Assembly: GCA_016215605.1 (NCBI GenBank) | Contig: JACRJB010000068.1 | Location: 62,001 to 126,000 of the forward strand | Direction of reading: 5' to 3' | DNA: 64,000 nt | Origin: Rhodopseudomonas palustris | GTDB taxonomy: Bacteria; Pseudomonadota; Alphaproteobacteria; Rhizobiales; Xanthobacteraceae | In this document: positions 32,073-62,758 of the stretch, one piece after another | Numbering within the stretch: position 1 is the first letter of the stretch | How the letters are laid out: each line of letters begins with the position of its first letter | Translations under genes and position numbers: made by a program | Notes under the pieces: generated by a model | The model's input: the letters and a program-made list of their open reading frames with translations, nothing else | Databases searched by the model: none | Told to the model about the DNA's origin: nothing

Positions 32073-34690
<2,618 letters not shown>

Positions 34691-53165: not shown

Positions 53166-53990
53166 ATGGTCCGGCTGCTGGTTGCGGAAGGCAATTCGAA
53201 CGAAGACCGCCGCCAGATCGTCGCCGCCGCCGGCCGCAGCATGGCCGACGCTTATGCCGATACGCTGCGGTTGATCGATCCCGCGCTGTCGATCGACACC
53301 TTCTCGCCTGCGGACGAAAGCGATGGGTTGCCGGCGCCGCTCGGATCCTATGACGGGGTGGTGATCACCGGCTCGTCGCTGCACGTCTATCGGCTCGCGC
53401 CGGCGGTGACCCGCCAGATCGAATTTCTGCGCGAGGTCTATGCCCTGGGCGTGCCGGTGTTTGGCTCGTGCTGGGGCTTGCAGCTCGGCGTGGCCGCCGC
53501 CGGCGGCCGCGTCGTCGCCAATCCACGCGGTCGCGAAGTTCCGTTCGCGACCGGCATCACATTGACCGAAGCCGGGCAAACGCACCCGATGCACCGGTCG
53601 CGGCCAGCCAGCTACGATGCGCTGGCGATTCACGCCGACATCGTCGCCGAGCTTCCGCCCGGCGCCATGGTGACGGCCTTCAACGGGATGGCTGCGGTTC
53701 AGGCCGCCGAATTTCGCGTCGGCCGGAGCCGGTTCTTCGGCGTACAGTATCACCCCGAGTTCGAGCTGCCCTACATGGCGGCGATCCTACGCCGCAACGC
53801 GCCGAGTTTGATCGCCGAACGCTCCGTCCGAAGCGAAGCGGAACTGATGGCGTTGATCGATCAAATGGAAAGTCACGGCCCTGATCCGGCGCCGACGTCC
53901 GCGGACGCGCGACCAGCGATCAGCGACGACATTCGCGATCGCAAGACGCGGTTGACCGAGATCATCAACTGGATCGGCTCGATCGGTTGA
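53166..53990 (+). CDS. Class I glutamine amidotransferase-like protein, second copy
   Basis: 274 residues. The nucleophile elbow is VPVFGSCWGLQLGVAAAGG and the His-Glu pair is FFGVQYHPEFELPY. The two amidotransferases in this operon are clearly different in sequence (GICFGHQ versus GSCWGLQ), so they are not a recent duplication. The ATG is three bases after the amidase stop. It is the last gene of the operon and is convergent with the vnf-side gene ending at 54012. Confidence 0.88.
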   Translation: MVRLLVAEGNSNEDRRQIVAAAGRSMADAYADTLRLIDPALSIDTFSPADESDGLPAPLGSYDGVVITGSSLHVYRLAPAVTRQIEFLREVYALGVPVFGSCWGLQLGVAAAGGRVVANPRGREVPFATGITLTEAGQTHPMHRSRPASYDALAIHADIVAELPPGAMVTAFNGMAAVQAAEFRVGRSRFFGVQYHPEFELPYMAAILRRNAPSLIAERSVRSEAELMALIDQMESHGPDPAPTSADARPAISDDIRDRKTRLTEIINWIGSIG

Positions 53991-54011
53991 TTGCCGCTTC
54001 CGGCTGGCGCG

Positions 54012-55079
54012 TCAGACCGGCACCACCGTGACCGGCGCGTTCAGCACCGAGGTCAGCCGGCGCCGCACGCCGCCGAGCGTTTGGCCGACCAGCGCGCAGG
54101 CGCGGCACTTGCCGTGCAGCTTGACCTCGATGCGGTTGCCGTTGACCGACACCAGTTCAAGATCACCGCCGTCGGCCTGGATGTTCGGCCGCAGTGCCGC
54201 GATGGTGTCGGAGATGATCTTGATTCTTGTGGCCTCGACCGGGGCGACACCGGATCGCGTGTCGGGGCGTAGATATTTCTGTTCGACGAAGCGGACGCTT
54301 GCCGCCAGCTCGTCGAGGGCGATCGTGTCCGGCACGAAACGCTGCACGATCGACACCCAGCCCTGATAGCCGATAGCGACGAGATGCTGGCGCATGTCGC
54401 CGTGATCGACCTGGCCGGTCGAACCGATCGGCGCCTTGCCGGGCTCGTCGATGTGGAAGATCTTGAGCAGCCGCTGCGCCGCGACGAAATGCGTGTGGCC
54501 GGTCTCGCCGCCCATCGCAAGCGGCGCGGAATCGAGGCTGATGGCGAAGGACGGATGATCGAGCGCCAGCGACAGCGTGTAGCATTCGCGCGCGGTGAGG
54601 CAGAAATCGCCCTCGTTCTCTGGCAGCGGCGCGAAGCACAGCGTGGTGCCGTGATCCCCGATTTGCGGCAGCAGTTCGTCGAAAAAATCGCGGCACGCGA
54701 ACCAGGCGTCCTTTTCGGGCAGCGTCGCCTTCCAGCGGGTGTCCAGCGTCAGCGTCTTGCCGCCAAGATCGCGGCACACCGCCGAAAGATGAACCAGATG
54801 CGCGATGGTGTGATCGCGATGCTCCTTGTTCTCGAACAGCCCGAGTTCGAGCCGCCCGCCCAGCACCGTATGCAACCCGACAATGGCGAGCCCGGCATTG
54901 TCGGCGACGCGGCGATAATTCCACACCGACTGGAAAGGGATTTCGTGGGTGTAGGGCGCGCGCTTCCAGGTGTGATCGGGCGCGATCTCGATGCCCTCGA
55001 CGCCGATCGCGCGCAGCCGCGGCAGCAGATACAGATGGTTGAACGGCGGCAGGCCGAGCGTCGAGGCGGCGAGCTTCAT
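54012..55079 (-). CDS. Fusion of a xylose-isomerase-like TIM barrel with a C-terminal Nfu domain
   Basis: 355 residues. Residues 1 to about 275 form a TIM barrel of the sugar-phosphate isomerase/AP endonuclease 2 class (KLAASTLGLPPFNHLYLLPR, FAISLDSAPLAMG, IFHIDEPG, IGYQGWVSIVQRF). Two positions that are usually metal-binding Glu are Ala150 (FAPLP) and Val245 (VSIVQRF), so the barrel may not be catalytic. Residues 284-355 match the NifU C-terminal (Nfu) domain with Cys325 and Cys328 in GKCRACALVGQTLGG, which binds an iron-sulfur cluster for transfer. It starts four bases after vnfX, so it is the last gene of vnfENX. A scaffold role in V-nitrogenase maturation is inference. Confidence 0.85.
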   Translation of the reverse strand: MKLAASTLGLPPFNHLYLLPRLRAIGVEGIEIAPDHTWKRAPYTHEIPFQSVWNYRRVADNAGLAIVGLHTVLGGRLELGLFENKEHRDHTIAHLVHLSAVCRDLGGKTLTLDTRWKATLPEKDAWFACRDFFDELLPQIGDHGTTLCFAPLPENEGDFCLTARECYTLSLALDHPSFAISLDSAPLAMGGETGHTHFVAAQRLLKIFHIDEPGKAPIGSTGQVDHGDMRQHLVAIGYQGWVSIVQRFVPDTIALDELAASVRFVEQKYLRPDTRSGVAPVEATRIKIISDTIAALRPNIQADGGDLELVSVNGNRIEVKLHGKCRACALVGQTLGGVRRRLTSVLNAPVTVVPV

Positions 55080-55083
55080 GGTG

Positions 55084-55563
55084 TCACTCCAGATCGTCGA
55101 CCGAGGTCATCAGTTGATGGGTTTCGCGTTCGGTCGCGACGGTCTGCGATTTGGCGGCACTGGCTTCAGCTTTCATCTTCGCCTTTTCGACCCAGGACAG
55201 GCCGCCATGCACCAGCGCCAGGCTGACTTCGTTGAGCAGGTCGAGGATGTCGTGGCCGTTGTCGACGATGATCGGCTGCACGCCTTGCGCCATCAGTCGG
55301 CGGATCGACGAGGTTCCGATCGAGGCCGCATAGACGGCAGCGCAGCCTTCGACGAAGCCGAGCTTCGGCAGCACCTTGTCGTGCACCGTACCAGTGAGGC
55401 CGACGCGGCCGGTCTCGCCGATCTGTTCGGCCTTCATGAAGGTGCCGACGCCGACCAGATCGGCCTGGCCGGGCGCAATGTCGTAGATCACCAGGCTTTC
55501 GGCGCCGCCGAAATGGAGATTCACAGTGCGGCGGTCGCTAGATGCGAAGGCAACTCTGATCAT
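55084..55563 (-). CDS. vnfX: VnfX, FeV-cofactor precursor-binding protein (NifX family)
   Basis: 159 residues of the NifX/NafY/VnfX family: IRVAFASSDRRTVNLHFGGAES, VHDKVLPKLGFVEGCAAVYAAS, VQPIIVDNGHDILDLLNE. A charged C-terminal tail follows. The family carries cofactor precursors such as the 8Fe and V-containing clusters between VnfEN and the apo-enzyme. The ATG at 55563 overlaps the vnfN stop (ATGA). Order vnfE-vnfN-vnfX is as in Azotobacter. Confidence 0.88.
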   Translation of the reverse strand: MIRVAFASSDRRTVNLHFGGAESLVIYDIAPGQADLVGVGTFMKAEQIGETGRVGLTGTVHDKVLPKLGFVEGCAAVYAASIGTSSIRRLMAQGVQPIIVDNGHDILDLLNEVSLALVHGGLSWVEKAKMKAEASAAKSQTVATERETHQLMTSVDDLE

Positions 55564-56930
55564 GGCAATGAACTCCGGCGGGCCGCATCCGGCTCTGCGC
55601 GAAAGCGCGAGCGATACGGCCGCAGCTCCTGAAAATTGGCGGCGAGCAGATCGGCGATGCGGAACAGCGTGCGCCGTCCACCGGCATAGCCGACGAAACT
55701 CTCCGCGTGGGCGCCGTAGGAATCGTAGATCGGGAAGCCGGCGCGCAGCAGCGCTGCGCCGGTTCGCTTGGCGATGTCGGCGCCGTGCGAATTGGTGACG
55801 AGCAGATCGGCGCCGCGCTCGCGCGCCAACCATTCGAAATCCTCGAGATCGCCGATCACCACGCTGTCGAGCGGCAGACTCGCAAGTTGCTGCCCCTTGG
55901 CGGAGGCTACCGCGGCGACGACCTCCGCACCCATCTCGACGAAGAAGGCGACAAGCGAGGCGCACAGATCGGCGTCTGCAGCGATTGCGATCCGCGCGCC
56001 GCCGAGCTGGAATTGGGTGTCGACCATCGCGTCGAGAAGCTGTGCACGCTTGCGTGCGACCTTGGCAGGCATGGCGCGATTGGCGATCGCGCCGAGCGCG
56101 TCGGAGAACGCGTCGCTGGCGGCGAGCCCGATCGCGCCGTCGAACCGATAGTCCGGAATGCCGGTGCGCTCGCGCAACAGATCGGCGGCGCCGTCGAGGG
56201 AGCGGCCGATCACCAGCGTCGCGGCCGACCGGCCCATCCGGCCGATCTCGTCGCCTGTGGTGCCGCCGTAGGTCAGGGTCGAGAAGCCGGTGTCGGTCAG
56301 GTGCCCGTCCAGCGAGTCGGCGATGTCTGGCAGCATGATCGGTGTCAGCCCGTAGGCCTCGATCCACACCTTGATGTCCTCGACGTCGCCGGGCGTCAGC
56401 ATCGCCGAAGCCAGTACGTTGACCTGGTGCCGCAGTCGCAGCGCGGCTCCCACCGGCGCCAGCGCTTCGATGATCGCCTCGACCGCCAGCGCGAAGCCAG
56501 ATTCGAGGCAGCCGAGCGTGTCGGTCGCCGGCGCCACGATAACGTCGATGCCGGCGTGTTCTGGATGTTTGGCGCGGAATTCGGCCACGGTGCGCGGGAT
56601 GTCGGAGCCTTGCATCGACGACAGGCCGGTAGAGATCAGGCCGATGACCTTCGGCCTGTCGCGCTCGCAGATCGTCGCCAGCGCCTCGACGATGCTGCCG
56701 TCGGCGCCGAGCACGGTGGTGATCTGGTCCATCGCGGTGGTCTGCAGCGCGATCGGCTCGTTGAAATGCCGCATGAAGAACAGCTTGTTGAACGAGGTGC
56801 AGCCGCGCGCGCCGTGCTCCAGTGGCAGGCAGTCGGCGAGGCCGAGAAACGCCAGCGAGGCGCCGATCGGCTGGCAGGCTTTCAGCGGATTGACCGCCAG
56901 GGGCTTGGTCGGCGTGAGGAGTTCGGCCAT
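55560..56930 (-). CDS. vnfN: V-nitrogenase cofactor scaffold subunit VnfN (NifN family)
   Basis: 456 residues, NifK/NifN-like. The N-terminal NPLKACQPIGASLAFLGLADC has the Cys that holds the precursor cluster, followed by LEHGARGCTSFNKLFFMRHF and LISTGLSSMQGSDIP. Glycine-rich TYGGTTGDEIGRMGRSAATL lies mid-protein. With VnfE it forms the scaffold on which the FeV-cofactor is finished. The ATG at 56930 begins the conserved block, 11 bases after vnfE. The label vnf rather than nif rests on neighbours (vnfX, vnfA, vnfH, vnfD). Confidence 0.88.
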   Translation of the reverse strand: MAELLTPTKPLAVNPLKACQPIGASLAFLGLADCLPLEHGARGCTSFNKLFFMRHFNEPIALQTTAMDQITTVLGADGSIVEALATICERDRPKVIGLISTGLSSMQGSDIPRTVAEFRAKHPEHAGIDVIVAPATDTLGCLESGFALAVEAIIEALAPVGAALRLRHQVNVLASAMLTPGDVEDIKVWIEAYGLTPIMLPDIADSLDGHLTDTGFSTLTYGGTTGDEIGRMGRSAATLVIGRSLDGAADLLRERTGIPDYRFDGAIGLAASDAFSDALGAIANRAMPAKVARKRAQLLDAMVDTQFQLGGARIAIAADADLCASLVAFFVEMGAEVVAAVASAKGQQLASLPLDSVVIGDLEDFEWLARERGADLLVTNSHGADIAKRTGAALLRAGFPIYDSYGAHAESFVGYAGGRRTLFRIADLLAANFQELRPYRSRFRAEPDAARRSSLP

Positions 56931-56941
56931 CGCGCTGCGCC

Positions 56942-58324
56942 TCAGGCTGCCGGCCGCGCCGCGAGGCTGCGGTTCTGCGCCCGCGCCCAAACCGGCGAGT
57001 TGGCCACCGCGTCGAGATTGCGCGCGAGTTCGATGATGCCCGCATAGCCGGCATAGCCGATGCGGCGAACGTGATCGATGTCGAGGAACGGCAGCCGCGA
57101 TTTCATTGCCGGGAAGATGTAGCGATCGCCGGCGACCAGAACGTCGGCGCCGCAATCGTGAAACGCCGCTATCAGAGCGCGCTGGTCGTTGTCCTCGATC
57201 ATCCGCGCCTGCGGCCCCATCAGCTCGCGGATGCGGGCCTTGTCCTCCTCGGTGGACTTTTCGGTGCCGGTCGCCACCACCTCGACACCGAGATCCTGCA
57301 TCGCCGACACCAACGACCAGGACTTGTAGCCGCCGGCGAACACCAGCACGCGTTTGCCCGCGACCCGCGGCCGGATCGAGACGAGTTCGTTTGCGACACA
57401 CGCTTCTTCGCGGGCGATCAGCGCCTCGGTGCGACGGTCGAGCTCCGGATCGTTCAGCAGCCGGGCGAAATTGCGGAAGGCGTCGGAGGTGTCGCGGACG
57501 CCGTAGAACGAACCTTCGAAATACGGCGCGCCGTAGCTCTCTTCGAGCTTGCGGGCGACGTGGATCATCGCCTTGGAGCACACCACCATGTTGGCTTTGG
57601 CGCGGTGCATGGTCTGCACCTCGCGGAAGCGGGAATCGCCGGAGAAGCTGCACAGGATGCGCAAGCCGAGCTCGTCGAACAGCGGCGCGACGTTCCAGAA
57701 CTCGCCGCCGACGTTCCATTCGCCGATCAGGTTGACGTCGTGCACGGTCCCGGGGAAATCGCTGGAGGCGGGCAGGGGATCCGGCTCGCGTGTACCGATA
57801 ACGTGACGCACCACGGCGTCGCCGGCGATCCGGTTGCCGAGATTCTTGTTACCATAGAAGCCGGCGCAGTCGATCGGGATCACCGAAAGGCCGAAGCGCT
57901 CGGATGCGGTCTTGGCGACGACATCGACATCATCGCCCTGCAGCGCCGGGATGCAGGTGACATAGACGAACACCGCCGCCGGGTTGTAGCGCTCGGCGAC
58001 ATAGCGGATCGCGCCGTACAGCTTCTTCTCGCCGCGGCCCATGATCACGTCCATGTCGCTGAGATCGGTGGTCATGCCGACGCGATACAGATCGGAGCCG
58101 GAGGAGCGCGAGCCGCGATTGTCCCAGGACGACCCCGCGCAGCCGATCGGGCCATGGACAATGTGGGCGGCGTCGGCGATCGGCAGCAGCGCATTGCGGG
58201 CGCCGTCGTAGCAGCAGCCGCCTTGGGTCGCGCCGGGCTTCGGCGCAGCGCAGCCGGACTTCGACTTGTTGTTCTGAGCGCACGCCGGCTCGTCCTTCAG
58301 CGCCAGCACGTCCTCGGGCTTCAT
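56942..58324 (-). CDS. vnfE: V-nitrogenase cofactor scaffold subunit VnfE (NifE family)
   Basis: 460 residues, NifD/NifE-like. Ligand-type cysteines are in [20 protein letters not shown] and [17 protein letters not shown], with [13 protein letters not shown] further on. The N-terminus [18 protein letters not shown] has extra cysteines, as in NifE. The ATG at 58324 (GGAGAAC upstream) is preferred over the longer open frame because a sigma-54 promoter lies at 58363-58377, inside that longer frame. First gene of vnfENX and the TIM-Nfu gene. Confidence 0.9.
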
Positions 58325-58362
58325 CCCGTTCTCCGTCGCGCGTGGGTTCTGACAGGAGAGGT

Positions 58363-58377
58363 GCAATCGGCGGGCCA
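58363..58377 (-). promoter_or_regulatory. Sigma-54 promoter of vnfENX
   Basis: TGGCCCGCCGATTGC: one mismatch in the -24 element (TGGCAC), perfect -12 TTGC and correct GG-N10-GC spacing. It rules out the longer VnfE start. Leader of about 27 bases. Confidence 0.75.
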
Positions 58378-58492
58378 AGCGCGCCAGCCTGTCAATCCAG
58401 TCAGAATATAGCGGTGAAGCATACTTTAATCGGAGAGACTCGCATCTTTGGGCCCGCGTCACGTACGTTTTCGATAGAAGGCCTCAGATTTA

Positions 58493-58506
58493 GTACATTT
58501 CGGAAC
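58493..58506. promoter_or_regulatory. Putative VnfA activator site between vnfE and vnfA
   Basis: GTACATTTCGGAAC = GTAC-N6-GAAC. This matches the VnfA binding motif described for the Azotobacter vnf promoters (GTACC-type dyads with GAAC or GTAC half-sites). It is 116 bases upstream of the vnfE promoter and about 99 bases upstream of the vnfA promoter candidate, both suitable distances for a sigma-54 activator. Confidence 0.6.
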
Positions 58507-58604
58507 GCAGCGGCGTTCGTGTGCGAAAGCGGACAACACAGGCACGTTCGTAATCTAACAATATCGCTATTCATAAAAATCAATGATTTACGATTTTTAA
58601 GTGC

Positions 58605-58619
58605 TGGCCTCAAATTTGC
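58605..58619 (+). promoter_or_regulatory. Possible sigma-54 promoter of vnfA
   Basis: TGGCCTCAAATTTGC: -24 TGGCCT (two mismatches) and a perfect -12 TTGC with GG-N10-GC. It lies 37 bases before the vnfA ATG, within an unusually AT-rich stretch. It would put vnfA under sigma-54, perhaps under its own control. Confidence 0.45.
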
Positions 58620-58656
58620 AACGCCGGTGTTGCTGTGACCAGCCGAGGCGTTCGTG

Positions 58657-60288
58657 ATGAACCTGTCCGAGACCGTTCAAGTCGAGGTCGATGACCTTTC
58701 CGAAGAATTCAGCCACTGTTTCACCGGCGAATGCCGGGTCAACGTGCTGCCGCTGCTGTACCAGATCAGCAAGATTATCACCGACAGCGAGGATCTGGCG
58801 AAGACGCTGACGCTGATCCTGTCGGTGATGCAGCATCAGCTCAAGATCCAGCGCGGCATGGTCACGCTGTACGACCGCGAGTCGCAGACCATCTTCATCC
58901 ACGAGAGCTTCGGCCTGACCGAGGATCAGAAGGCGCGCGGGTTGTATGCGCCGGGCGAGGGCATCACCGGGCAGGTGGTGGAGAGCGGCAAACCGATCAT
59001 CGTCCCGCATCTGCGCGACGACAGCCGTTTTCTCGATCGCACCAAGTCGCACGCCGACGGCAACGGCAACGCGTCGTTCTTTTGCGTGCCGATCATCCAT
59101 GGTCGCAAGGTGCTCGGCACCATCAGCGCCGAGCGCGGCTATCGCAATCGAAGGCTGCTGAAGCAGGACGTCGAAGTGCTGTCGACCATTGCGTCGATGA
59201 TCGCGCCGGCGGTCGAGCTGTATCTGCTCGAGAATGTCGACAAGGTTCGGTTGGAGAACGAGAATCGGCGGCTGCAGAGCGAACTCAAGGAGCGCTTCAA
59301 GCCGTCCAACATCATCGGCAGCTCCAAGCCGATGCAGGCGGTGTACGACCTGATCCAGAAGGTCGCGGCGACCAAGACCACGGTGCTGATCCTCGGCGAA
59401 AGCGGCGTCGGCAAGGAACTGGTCGCCAACGCCATGCACTACAACAGCGCCAATGCCGACGGCCCGTTCGTCAAGTTCAACTGCGCGGCGCTGCCGGAGA
59501 ACATCGTCGAGAGCGAATTGTTCGGCCACGAGAAGGGTTCGTTCACCGGCGCGGTCGGGATGCGCAAGGGCCGGTTCGAACTCGCCGACGGCGGCACGAT
59601 CTTTCTCGACGAGATCGGCGAACTCAGCCTGCCGATGCAAGCCAAACTGCTGCGCGTGCTGCAGGAGCGCACGTTCGAGCGGGTTGGTGGCTCGAAGCCG
59701 GTCAAGGTTGACCTGCGCATCATCGCCGCCACCAATCGTAACCTGCTCGACATGGTGGCGAAGGGCACGTTCCGCGAGGATCTGTACTACCGGCTCAACG
59801 TGTTCCCGATCACCATCCCGCCGCTGCGCGATCGTGGCAGCGACGTGGTGCTACTCGCCGATCATTTCGTCGCCCGAAACGCGGCGGCGTCCGGCAAGGA
59901 GGTCAAGCGGATTTCGACGCCGGCGCTGAACATGCTGATGGCGTATCATTGGCCCGGCAATGTCCGCGAACTCGAAAACGTCATCGAGCGCTCCGTCATC
60001 CTGTCCGACGACGGCGTGATCCACGGCTACAATCTGCCGCCGTCGCTGCAGACCTCGGAGGAGACCGGCACCAATTTCGGCTGCAGCATGGAGGCCAAGG
60101 TCGAGGCGGTCGAATACGAGATGATCATCGAGGCGCTGAAGACCCACAACGGCAACACCACCGAAGCCGCCAAGGAACTCGGCCTGACCCGCCGCGTGCT
60201 CGGCCTCCGCATCGAAAAATACGGTATCGACTATCGGATCTATCGCCGCTCCTACATCGCCAAACAGTCAGCCAAGCAGAAAGAGTGA
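58657..60288 (+). CDS. vnfA: V-nitrogenase transcriptional activator VnfA (NifA family)
   Basis: 543 residues. N-terminal [21 protein letters not shown] (Cys21, Cys26) is followed by a GAF domain, the AAA+ domain (Walker [11 protein letters not shown]; Walker [13 protein letters not shown]) and the HTH (NGNTTEAAKELGLTRRVLGLRIEKYG). It is a close paralogue of AnfA at 39052 and shares the N-terminal cysteine motif. The sigma-54 contact loop reads GSFTGA. ATG 58657 has GAGG 8 bases upstream; a GTG at 58654 is an alternative. Position between vnfE and vnfH identifies it as VnfA. Confidence 0.92.
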   Translation: MNLSETVQVEVDDLSEEFSHCFTGECRVNVLPLLYQISKIITDSEDLAKTLTLILSVMQHQLKIQRGMVTLYDRESQTIFIHESFGLTEDQKARGLYAPGEGITGQVVESGKPIIVPHLRDDSRFLDRTKSHADGNGNASFFCVPIIHGRKVLGTISAERGYRNRRLLKQDVEVLSTIASMIAPAVELYLLENVDKVRLENENRRLQSELKERFKPSNIIGSSKPMQAVYDLIQKVAATKTTVLILGESGVGKELVANAMHYNSANADGPFVKFNCAALPENIVESELFGHEKGSFTGAVGMRKGRFELADGGTIFLDEIGELSLPMQAKLLRVLQERTFERVGGSKPVKVDLRIIAATNRNLLDMVAKGTFREDLYYRLNVFPITIPPLRDRGSDVVLLADHFVARNAAASGKEVKRISTPALNMLMAYHWPGNVRELENVIERSVILSDDGVIHGYNLPPSLQTSEETGTNFGCSMEAKVEAVEYEMIIEALKTHNGNTTEAAKELGLTRRVLGLRIEKYGIDYRIYRRSYIAKQSAKQKE

Positions 60289-60293
60289 TCACC

Positions 60294-60692
60294 ATGTGCG
60301 ACAGTTGCGGACCGGAATCGCCCGAGGACCAAGCGTCCGAACAGGCAGCGCGCGCATCGCTGCGGGTCCGACACTTCCATCTGATCCTGGCGGATATCGC
60401 GGTCGCCGCTGCGGCGCAAAGTCTCGGGCATTCCGCCCAGCTCGCCGCTGCTGGCGACTACGTGCCCGGCGCAATCCGCGACCTTTGGCAAGAGAACGCC
60501 CCGGACGATGCGGCGCTGCGCCGGGTCAACGCGCTGGCGAACGCCGGAACGGCGTCGCTGCAGCAGCAGGACGCCGGCAAACTGGCATTGGCGGCGCAAC
60601 GCTACGGCATCCCACTCGACGCAACCCTCGCGGAGGAAATCGCCGGCCATTTCGCCGAGCGGCGCGATGCGGTGATGACCTACAATCGGTGA
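60294..60692 (+). CDS. Small cysteine-containing protein downstream of vnfA
   Basis: 132 residues starting CDSCGPESPEDQ after the Met, with cysteines only at residues 2 and 5. The rest is alanine-rich and helical (RHFHLILADIAVAAAAQSL, LREL-type helices, and a C-terminal EEIAGHFAERRDAVMTYNR). I do not recognise the family. It starts five bases after the vnfA stop, so it belongs to the vnfA transcript. A metal- or cluster-linked regulatory partner of VnfA is a guess based only on the Cys pair and position. Confidence 0.75.
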   Translation: MCDSCGPESPEDQASEQAARASLRVRHFHLILADIAVAAAAQSLGHSAQLAAAGDYVPGAIRDLWQENAPDDAALRRVNALANAGTASLQQQDAGKLALAAQRYGIPLDATLAEEIAGHFAERRDAVMTYNR

Positions 60693-60707
60693 ACGGCTAT
60701 CTCAGCT

Positions 60708-60786
60708 CGTCATTGCGAGGAGCGTAGCGAGAAGCAATCCAGCCCCATGGACTGCGCTGGATTGCTTCGCTTCGCTCGCGATGACG
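60708..60786. repeat. Dispersed palindromic repeat, copy B
   Basis: Starts CGTCATTGCGAGGAGCGTAG and ends in GCTTCGCTCGCGATGACG. Nearly identical to the copy at 18179. It lies between the convergent vnfA-side and vnfH genes. Confidence 0.85.
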
Positions 60787-61832: not shown

Positions 61833-62636
61833 TCACGGCGCGCTCGGCGCCTGCACCAGCTCGATGCGGTGACCGTCCGGATCCTCAATGAAAGCAACGA
61901 TGGACTCGCCGTGGCGCTGCGCCCGCGGCGGCCGCGGCATGGTCACCCCCTGCGCCGCCAGCCGGTCGCACAGCGCGGTAATTCCCGACACGCCGATGGC
62001 GATGTGCCCGTACGAAGTACCGTGCGTGTACGGCTGATCCTCGGTCCAGTTGAACACCAGCTCGATCGTCATCCCCGACGAGCCGGCGCCGTAGCCCAGA
62101 TAGGCCTGCGTGAACTGGTTCTTTTTGTGATCGCGCCGCTCCAGCACCGTCATGCCGAGTAGGCGCGTATAGAAGTCGATGGCGCGGTCGATGTCGGTGA
62201 CGCGCAGCATGGCGTGCAGGAGCTGGAATTGCGAGGTGTCCAGTGGCGCTTCGCTGCGGGCGGCGGATTTCGAAGCGAACACTTCTAAGAGTGCCGCCTC
62301 GACGCCCTTCCCGGCGAAGCGGTCGATCGCCTCGATGCCGACGCCTGCGAGCTTCTCCTGCGGCGTTACGCCGATCTTGGCGACCAGCAACACTTGGCAA
62401 TCCTTCAGCATCCGGCAGATCGTGTCGCGGCGATCCTCTTCGCCCTCGGCGTATTGGCCGACGTCGCGGTCCTCGACAGGGACGATGCCGGAGGCCGAGA
62501 CGTCGTAAACCCGGAAGAGGTCGGCCTGGCCGAAATGCTGGTCGATCCGAATGCCCTCGCTGCTGGCGACGGCGATCCGGAGGGTCGATGAGCGAGAGGT
62601 CGGCTCCGCGCGCGGAGCGTCGAGTTCAGCCAGCAT
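61833..62636 (-). CDS. NifX/NifB-C-like domain fused to glyoxalase I
   Basis: 267 residues. Residues 17 to about 122 match the NifX/NifB C-terminal cofactor-binding fold (LRIAVASSEGIRIDQHFGQA, CQVLLVAKIGVTPQEKLAGVG). Residues 138-262 match short glyoxalase I with all four metal ligands: His141 (LLHAMLRVTDIDRAIDFYTR), Glu192 (TIELVFNW), His211 (SYGHIAIGV) and Glu259 (HRIELVQ). The longer open frame to 62687 is excluded, because a sigma-54 promoter lies at 62672-62686; ATG 62636 has AGGAGAA upstream. It lies upstream of vnfH on the same strand. A link between cofactor handling and the glyoxalase domain is unexplained. Confidence 0.88.
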   Translation of the reverse strand: MLAELDAPRAEPTSRSSTLRIAVASSEGIRIDQHFGQADLFRVYDVSASGIVPVEDRDVGQYAEGEEDRRDTICRMLKDCQVLLVAKIGVTPQEKLAGVGIEAIDRFAGKGVEAALLEVFASKSAARSEAPLDTSQFQLLHAMLRVTDIDRAIDFYTRLLGMTVLERRDHKKNQFTQAYLGYGAGSSGMTIELVFNWTEDQPYTHGTSYGHIAIGVSGITALCDRLAAQGVTMPRPPRAQRHGESIVAFIEDPDGHRIELVQAPSAP

Positions 62637-62671
62637 GGCGGTTCTCCTGATGATGAGCTGAGATGCGTTAC

Positions 62672-62686
62672 GCAACGCGCGTGCCA
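62672..62686 (-). promoter_or_regulatory. Sigma-54 promoter of the NifX-glyoxalase gene
   Basis: TGGCACGCGCGTTGC, a perfect -24/-12 match. It overlaps the apparent upstream ATG of the open frame, so translation must start further in, at 62636. Confidence 0.88.
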
Positions 62687-62758
62687 CACCAGGCGGCGTA
62701 AAAACGCACGCTCAGGTCCGCCGCCCGCACGACCGCGTGCGACTCTCGGAAGATTTTG

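Follow-up and report, generated by a model that had tools for sequence, protein, structure and literature searches.

The window analysed here, a stretch of 64,000 nucleotides from Rhodopseudomonas palustris, carries on its minus strand the genes vnfE, vnfN and vnfX, followed by a gene that joins two domains in one frame. As the initial annotation had it, four nucleotides separate the end of vnfX (55084) from the ATG of this gene (55079); a GGAG stands 7 nt before that ATG. The next gene past the fusion, at 53166-53990 on the plus strand, is convergent with it, so that the fusion gene closes the vnfENX operon. The features of the locus are as follows:

54012..55079, minus strand: barrel-Nfu fusion gene, last in the vnfENX operon, a single 355-aa frame
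54255..55079, minus strand: xylose-isomerase-like TIM barrel, residues 1-275, with Ala150 and Val245 at two Glu ligand positions and D183 and H209 present
54012..54254, minus strand: Nfu (NifU C-terminal) domain, residues 276-355 and stop, CxxC at C325/C328
55084..55563, minus strand: vnfX (PF02579; NifX-like), by family scan
55560..56930, minus strand: vnfN, overlapping the start of vnfX, by family scans on 55560-56927
56942..58324, minus strand: vnfE, likely start ATG 58324 and not GTG 58462, by family scans on 56942-58462
58362..58377, minus strand: sigma-54-like promoter TGGCCCGCCGATTGCA, TGGCCC-N5-TTGCA, one mismatch to consensus, 37 nt before the likely vnfE ATG
58654..60288, plus strand: vnfA-type sigma-54 activator, divergent from vnfE, by family scans

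The protein passes the Pfam cut-offs for both of the domains first read from the DNA: PF01261 (AP_endonuc_2) covers residues 21-250 with 65.9 bits against a cut-off of 31.1, and PF01106 (NifU) covers residues 289-352 with 53 bits against 27, the CxxC at Cys325/Cys328 being intact. Neither an IscU-like nor a BFD domain was found in the Pfam scan, and the score against NifU proper (TIGR02000) is 60.2 bits, below the cut-off of 273.3. The genome itself holds no second copy of the barrel at E 1; outside this locus it encodes two more PF01106 proteins, one NifU-like and one NfuA-like. A chance ORF can be discounted: in six other genomes a homologue comes after vnfX, and the barrel dN/dS is below 1.

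The start at 58324 is the most likely one for vnfE since the longer ORF from 58462 crosses the sigma-54-like site (58377-58362). A site of this kind had been expected at the head of the operon, and one is there, with one mismatch. A pattern scan with the generally known sigma-54 consensus gave 21 matches with up to two mismatches in the window against a shuffle mean of 24.3, no commoner than chance, and seven with none or one; among these are:

16357 (one mismatch) and 16444 (perfect): by transport genes, far from the nitrogenase genes
32149-32164, plus strand: perfect match before the likely anfH start
61811: 0-1 mismatch, before vnfH
62671: 0-1 mismatch, inside the long frame of the NifX-glyoxalase gene
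62935: 0-1 mismatch, before vnfD

Because the pattern is not enriched and matches also occur near 16.4 kb, it is position that carries the vnfE promoter claim. No sigma-70-like site was found in 53900-58700. The one terminator-like match on the fusion strand lies inside the fusion gene, and such matches are at chance level (2 found against a mean of 2.6).

Some neighbouring frames deserve a remark. The perfect consensus at 32149-32164 (+) lies within the long anfH frame beginning at 32115; the anfH start is therefore probably further downstream. Between vnfA and vnfH, a 143-aa frame (60296-60727, plus strand) has no Pfam match at E 0.01. At 61833-62687 (minus strand), a NifX-like domain (PF02579) is fused to a glyoxalase-I-like domain; NifX-glyoxalase-like frames also occur in the vnf clusters of genomes G191 and G1344, and in that of G1351 as two overlapping frames.

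The fusion itself is rare. Among 149 genomes of the same family, a full-length match to the fusion protein occurs in its own genome only; 55 of the 149 match at E 0.001, and apart from the own genome all of these matches are Nfu-only or partial barrel. With the fusion protein as query, 385 genomes of the class (best five or fewer first-look candidates scored per genome) gave one more at E < 1e-20: G191, with a 264-aa barrel straight after vnfX, without Nfu. By similarity to the fusion protein, no second fusion was found in the 149 family genomes or the 385 class genomes (E 1e-20), nor is there one among the eight vnf-type and nine O-type barrels described below. Two narrow peptide patterns, scanned against contigs, hit three loci: L044 (a contig of G191), the 3-kb L045 and an Nfu-only match. 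The scan of viral sequences gave no match. Eight plasmid protein records were returned, none covering 80%, and the best barrel match among them sits in a glycosyltransferase region; three Nostoc plasmids carry a close VnfD, with no match to the fusion protein on those plasmids.

V-nitrogenase is itself uncommon in these samples. VnfD (TIGR01860) scores over the cut-off in 1 of 16 genus genomes; in seven others a lower match of 703-710 bits was taken for AnfD. It does so in 2 of 398 phylum genomes (the own genome, G000, and G191; best four or fewer first-look candidates scored per genome), in none of 369 genomes in the class of G844, which we take to be Gammaproteobacteria, and in 3 of 90 genomes in the order of G191. 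In the same 398 phylum genomes (the identity of the two samples being inferred from equal counts and labels; best five or fewer candidates scored per genome), the strongest matches to the barrel profile are the two VnfD-positive genomes (E 8.7e-226 and 4.5e-148), from which that profile was itself built; six weaker matches lie between 1e-15 and 1e-20. The fusion protein alone found the same two genomes in the 385 class genomes, a sample searched for the barrel and not for VnfD.

The expected co-occurrence with vnf holds in part. The vnf-type barrels sit beside vnf genes, but the barrel is absent from two of the four VnfD-positive genomes: it is present in G000 and G191, and the barrel profile search found none in G1285 and G1322. 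There vnfENX stands without the barrel, and the next frames are convergent and phosphonate-type ABC transporter-like by a look at the sequence. The vnf-type barrel occurs with vnf, but vnf does not need the barrel. The candidate role of a marker of all vnf clusters, or of a general V-nitrogenase factor, was rejected on the two VnfD-positive genomes without it.

More relatives come from f45, the family of G191, another family of the same class as the window genome. A profile of three barrels matches 18 of 55 f45 genomes at E <=1e-15, 17 of them at E < 1e-60; the barrel clades do not include G1354 (E 2e-17). Eight of the barrels are vnf-type (G191, G1339, G1351, G1353, G1346, G1344, G1326 and G1373). 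Wherever upstream sequence exists, vnfN-vnfX lies directly upstream (6/6 f45 vnf-type loci), and the order vnfN-X-barrel is found in seven of seven loci: the window, G191, G1351, G1353, G1346, G1344 and G1326. In G1339 and G1373 the contig starts within the barrel gene, and both were assigned to the vnf type by sequence. VnfD lies beside the barrel locus in G191, G1351 and G1344, and VnfH in G1326; in G1353 and G1346 the stretch read holds only vnfA, E, N and X. This fixed place after vnfX bears out the tie between the fusion gene and V-nitrogenase assembly that the initial annotation had drawn.

The other nine, O-type barrels (L091-L099) have no frame like the Vnf or Anf proteins of the window within about 7-8 kb. 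No VnfD over the cut-off was found in G1281 and G1295, the two of the nine O-type genomes covered. The three O-type loci inspected (L093, L094 and L096) have sugar- or surface-polymer-like neighbours, two of those at L096 having been run through Pfam. In the barrel tree, a branch supported at 98/96 sets off the vnf rows, and O rows are grouped at 93/91; the tree is midpoint-rooted, with distant outgroups (C rows L038-L042) whose long branches meet.

The Nfu part is a less constant companion. Four loci (G1351, G1353, G1346 and G1373) have a stand-alone nfu gene of 78-83 aa after the barrel, and the other four (G1344, G1326, G191 and G1339) have none. In a tree of 37 rows and 79 columns (L066 left out), the fused Nfu and the four stand-alone ones form one group (100/99), apart from 14 NifU C-termini, 15 short Nfu and three NfuA; the fused Nfu and that of G1373 have long end branches. 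Identity of the fused Nfu is 62% to G1353, 60% to G1346, 57% to G1351 and 55% to G1373; the best other (L005) reaches 53%. Grouping of the fused Nfu with the separate neighbours implies that the fusion joined two adjacent genes, a Rosetta-stone pair, and pairwise dN/dS of the Nfu is 0.06 (NG86). A lost stop without functional meaning was rejected as an explanation, as the split pair lies side by side in four loci; a fusion conserved as a unit was rejected too, with Nfu separate (4/8) or absent beside the barrel (4/8) in the vnf-type relatives. All eight relatives are unfused, so the claim for the fusion as such does not carry over to them, whereas its link to vnf does. Hence the core is the barrel, and Nfu is a partner that is optional. 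Among individual loci, the stand-alone Nfu of G1351 (L086:9115-9351, plus strand) has the first Cys of its CxxC replaced; G1344, of the same genus as G1351, has only a very short frame after the barrel and no nfu gene. The one PF01106 protein of G191 lies away from the barrel and is NfuA-like.

The next gene, after the barrel or nfu, is in all eight f45 vnf-type loci (L037, L086-L090, L100 and L101; Pfam run on two of the eight) a DUF2478-DUF4213-DUF364 gene, of the ‘putative heavy-metal chelation’ kind. A second copy lies nearby in L086, L088 and L089. A homologue (51% over 390 aa) is also encoded by the window genome, past the downstream end of its vnf structural genes:

about G000:C52:132852-134153 (L063:2853-4154), minus strand: own-genome DUF homologue, then a transporter-like ATPase frame by a look at the sequence

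A structural study of DUF364 (PMC2954201) connects the domain, through its genome context, with the vanadium genes RPA1384/RPA1385 of R. palustris.

What sets the vnf-type barrels apart is the metal site. In an alignment of 23 rows (nine vnf-type, nine O-type and five distant relatives; L017 left out), the Glu-Asp-His-Glu ligand set is intact in 9/9 O-type barrels and 5/5 distant relatives. The nine vnf-type barrels have Ala (8) or Ser (1) at position 150, Ser (7), Ala (1) or Asp (1, the window protein) at 183, His (9) at 209, and Val (7), Ile (1) or Lys (1) at 245. Ala150 and Val245 do stand at Glu metal-ligand positions, as alignment to the canonical relatives makes plain; with both Glu replaced, the window protein does not have the ligand set of a metal-dependent sugar isomerase or epimerase. 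Both Glu are the catalytic bases in the sugar epimerase family. Their loss in all nine vnf-type barrels, and retention in all nine of the sister clade, favours the earlier suggestion that the barrel binds rather than catalyses. Partial metal binding by Asp183 and His209, still found in the window protein, is possible.

The vnf-type barrels have also gained residues. Invariant in 9/9 rows and unlike the O majority are W116, W126, D174, H195, D211, E212, D228, R230, H232, L258 and L270, as are M1, L8 and C160 in the seven rows having those positions. E212 and D174 are common in distant relatives too and may be old residues; H232 occurs in one O row. Residues invariant in the vnf type and shared with the O majority include E31, H70, C102, R103, D104, R115, C148, C166, H209, D225, H226 and Q246. 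From the strand ends of a structure model, E31, H70, R115, C148/A150, D183, H209/D211 and V245/Q246 would lie close to the barrel's C-terminal mouth. The idea that four Cys of the barrel form a cluster site was dropped: the ligand-intact sister clade has C102, C148 and C166 as well, and C129 is variable. Barrel dN/dS (NG86) is 0.27 for G1353-G1346, 0.25 for G1351-G1344 and 0.40 for BP5-LL4; a ligand-intact O-type pair gives 0.22.

That model (AF2) has a mean pLDDT of 68 from an alignment of three sequences, and the TIM-barrel fold is accordingly held with moderate confidence. Foldseek matched it to 3vni, 6wn6 and 3cqi with E from 7e-12 to 8e-11 and TM of 0.56-0.59 on the query (best chain each). 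The best PDB matches are sugar epimerases, with identities of 13-18% among the 50 matches listed; by sequence alone no solved structure matched the barrel at E 0.01.

The best way to understand these observations (gene order, domain make-up, shared ancestry, ligand loss, new invariant residues and dN/dS below 1) is to see in the fusion gene an accessory V-nitrogenase maturation factor acting at the VnfEN/VnfX step, in which a recruited pseudo-isomerase serves for binding and docking. We put the probability of this at about one half. That is, the barrel would share a recent origin with a ligand-intact clade resembling metal-dependent sugar isomerases or epimerases, to judge from fold matches and neighbours; on recruitment into the vnfENX operon it would have lost the catalytic metal site, kept the pocket residues Glu31, His70, Arg115, His209, His226 and Gln246, and gained Trp116, His195, Asp211, Arg230 and His232; the pocket would now bind a ligand and not convert it, and the barrel would dock on VnfEN/VnfX. 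The Nfu, a neighbouring gene joined to the barrel in the window lineage, most likely would carry a labile Fe-S cluster to the same partner. Placement at VnfEN/VnfX follows from gene order and the vnf association; the name binding module reflects the loss of both catalytic Glu alongside a conserved pocket. Speaking against this reading are the two VnfD-positive genomes that have vnfENX but no barrel, the lack of an adjacent Nfu in half of the eight relatives, the Asp183 and His209 kept in the window protein, the higher dN/dS of the BP5-LL4 pair, the small basis of the structure model, the nine O-type members of the family away from vnf, and the view of VnfX, the neighbour, as non-essential in A. 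vinelandii (PMC8406325).

A second perspective casts the barrel as the vanadium donor or insertase of VnfEN, the V counterpart of NifQ, which serves Mo, with the new His and Asp residues holding V. All three nitrogenases use homocitrate, and by this reasoning a factor confined to vnf would more naturally serve V. The invariant newcomers His195, Asp211 and His232 may lie beside the retained His70, His209 and His226; the barrel gene neighbours vnfX, at the point of V entry, to go by the role given to VnfEN in the accessible part of PMC13128457; and the DUF364 gene comes next in 8/8 f45 vnf-type loci, with its context link to vanadium (PMC2954201, in extract). The putative metal site is, however, predicted from sequence conservation, and the vnf clusters of G1285 and G1322 lack the barrel. 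We regard this perspective as unlikely. Its bolder version, distinctly improbable, makes the dead sugar isomerase the missing V-insertion factor: a pocket with His195, Asp211 and His232 would hold V or V-homocitrate for cluster exchange on VnfX/VnfEN, assisted by Nfu and the DUF364 protein. To our knowledge, how V reaches VnfEN is not settled; the literature listings and partial texts consulted name no V donor.

The fusion might instead be mainly an Fe-S carrier for VnfEN, VnfH or VnfA, like Azotobacter VnfU, the barrel being a mere docking platform. Its Nfu domain has the CxxC, and extracts of PMC4465626 and PMC9542535 place vnfU next to vnfA and give it a likely part in cluster maturation. 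But four of eight relatives keep the barrel without an adjacent Nfu, and the CxxC is broken in G1351; Fe-S carriage therefore cannot be the core function, and the proposal is a doubtful one. It is very unlikely that the barrel is still an enzyme, acting on an organic ligand (a step in homocitrate handling, for example) by a metal-independent or altered mechanism: Glu31, His70, Arg115, His209, His226 and Gln246 are indeed common to both clades, and the window protein keeps Asp183 and His209, but both Glu are gone from 9/9 vnf-type barrels. Equally hard to credit is a passenger, a sugar-metabolism gene hitchhiking in a single vnf lineage and contributing nothing to nitrogen fixation. The lineage-restricted distribution, and the sugar/surface-polymer neighbourhoods of the inspected sister barrels (3/9 loci), agree with that; the fixed position after vnfX in 7/7 loci, the invariant residues peculiar to the vnf-specific clade and a dN/dS well below 1 do not.

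The maturation-factor reading has two implications. First, with a family located beside vnfX, at the V hand-over step, the V-delivery question becomes testable in a laboratory species. Second, the barrel clearly exemplifies an enzyme fold losing its catalytic metal site when recruited to an operon for metallocluster assembly, and the intact sister clade allows comparison.

A barrel-Nfu helper for V-nitrogenase assembly looks undescribed: among the matches listed (titles and abstract openings, subscription papers lying mostly outside), none describes the vnf barrel or the fusion. In the part of PMC9431616 available, the V-nitrogenase genes of R. palustris CGA009 are rpa1370-rpa1380; RPA1377 is a glyoxalase by listing, with a substitution in an evolved nitrogen-fixing strain (PMC9973337, in extract). 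From the fusion to vnfK there are eleven genes in the window genome, counting the 143-aa frame at 60296-60727 and vnfG (by eye), and the glyoxalase is the eighth; by this count the fusion gene should be RPA1370.

The barrel resembles the D-psicose/D-tagatose 3-epimerases, YcjR and UlaE (PF01261) in its Pfam match and in the fold matches of its model. It differs from the PF01261 sugar enzymes in that both Glu ligands are replaced, and in its setting, vnfENX instead of sugar genes. With Nfu/NifU-C proteins, the fusion shares a PF01106 match over the cut-off and the CxxC; against the sampled NifU C-termini, short Nfu and NfuA, the vnf Nfu is a separate group. As for its proposed partner, the excerpt of PMC8406325 has VnfX thought to carry a precursor to VnfEN and considered non-essential in A. 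vinelandii; a 1999 title in the reference list of PMC13128457 speaks of a V-Fe cluster on VnfX. Azotobacter VnfU is another near protein by description: the accessible text of PMC9542535 gives it homology to the C-terminal domain of NifU and a likely role in cluster maturation, and that of PMC4465626 gives the Azotobacter cluster as vnfUAENX. Both are NifU-C-type proteins of a vnf cluster; Azotobacter vnfU lies before vnfA, whereas the fusion gene of the window lies after vnfX.
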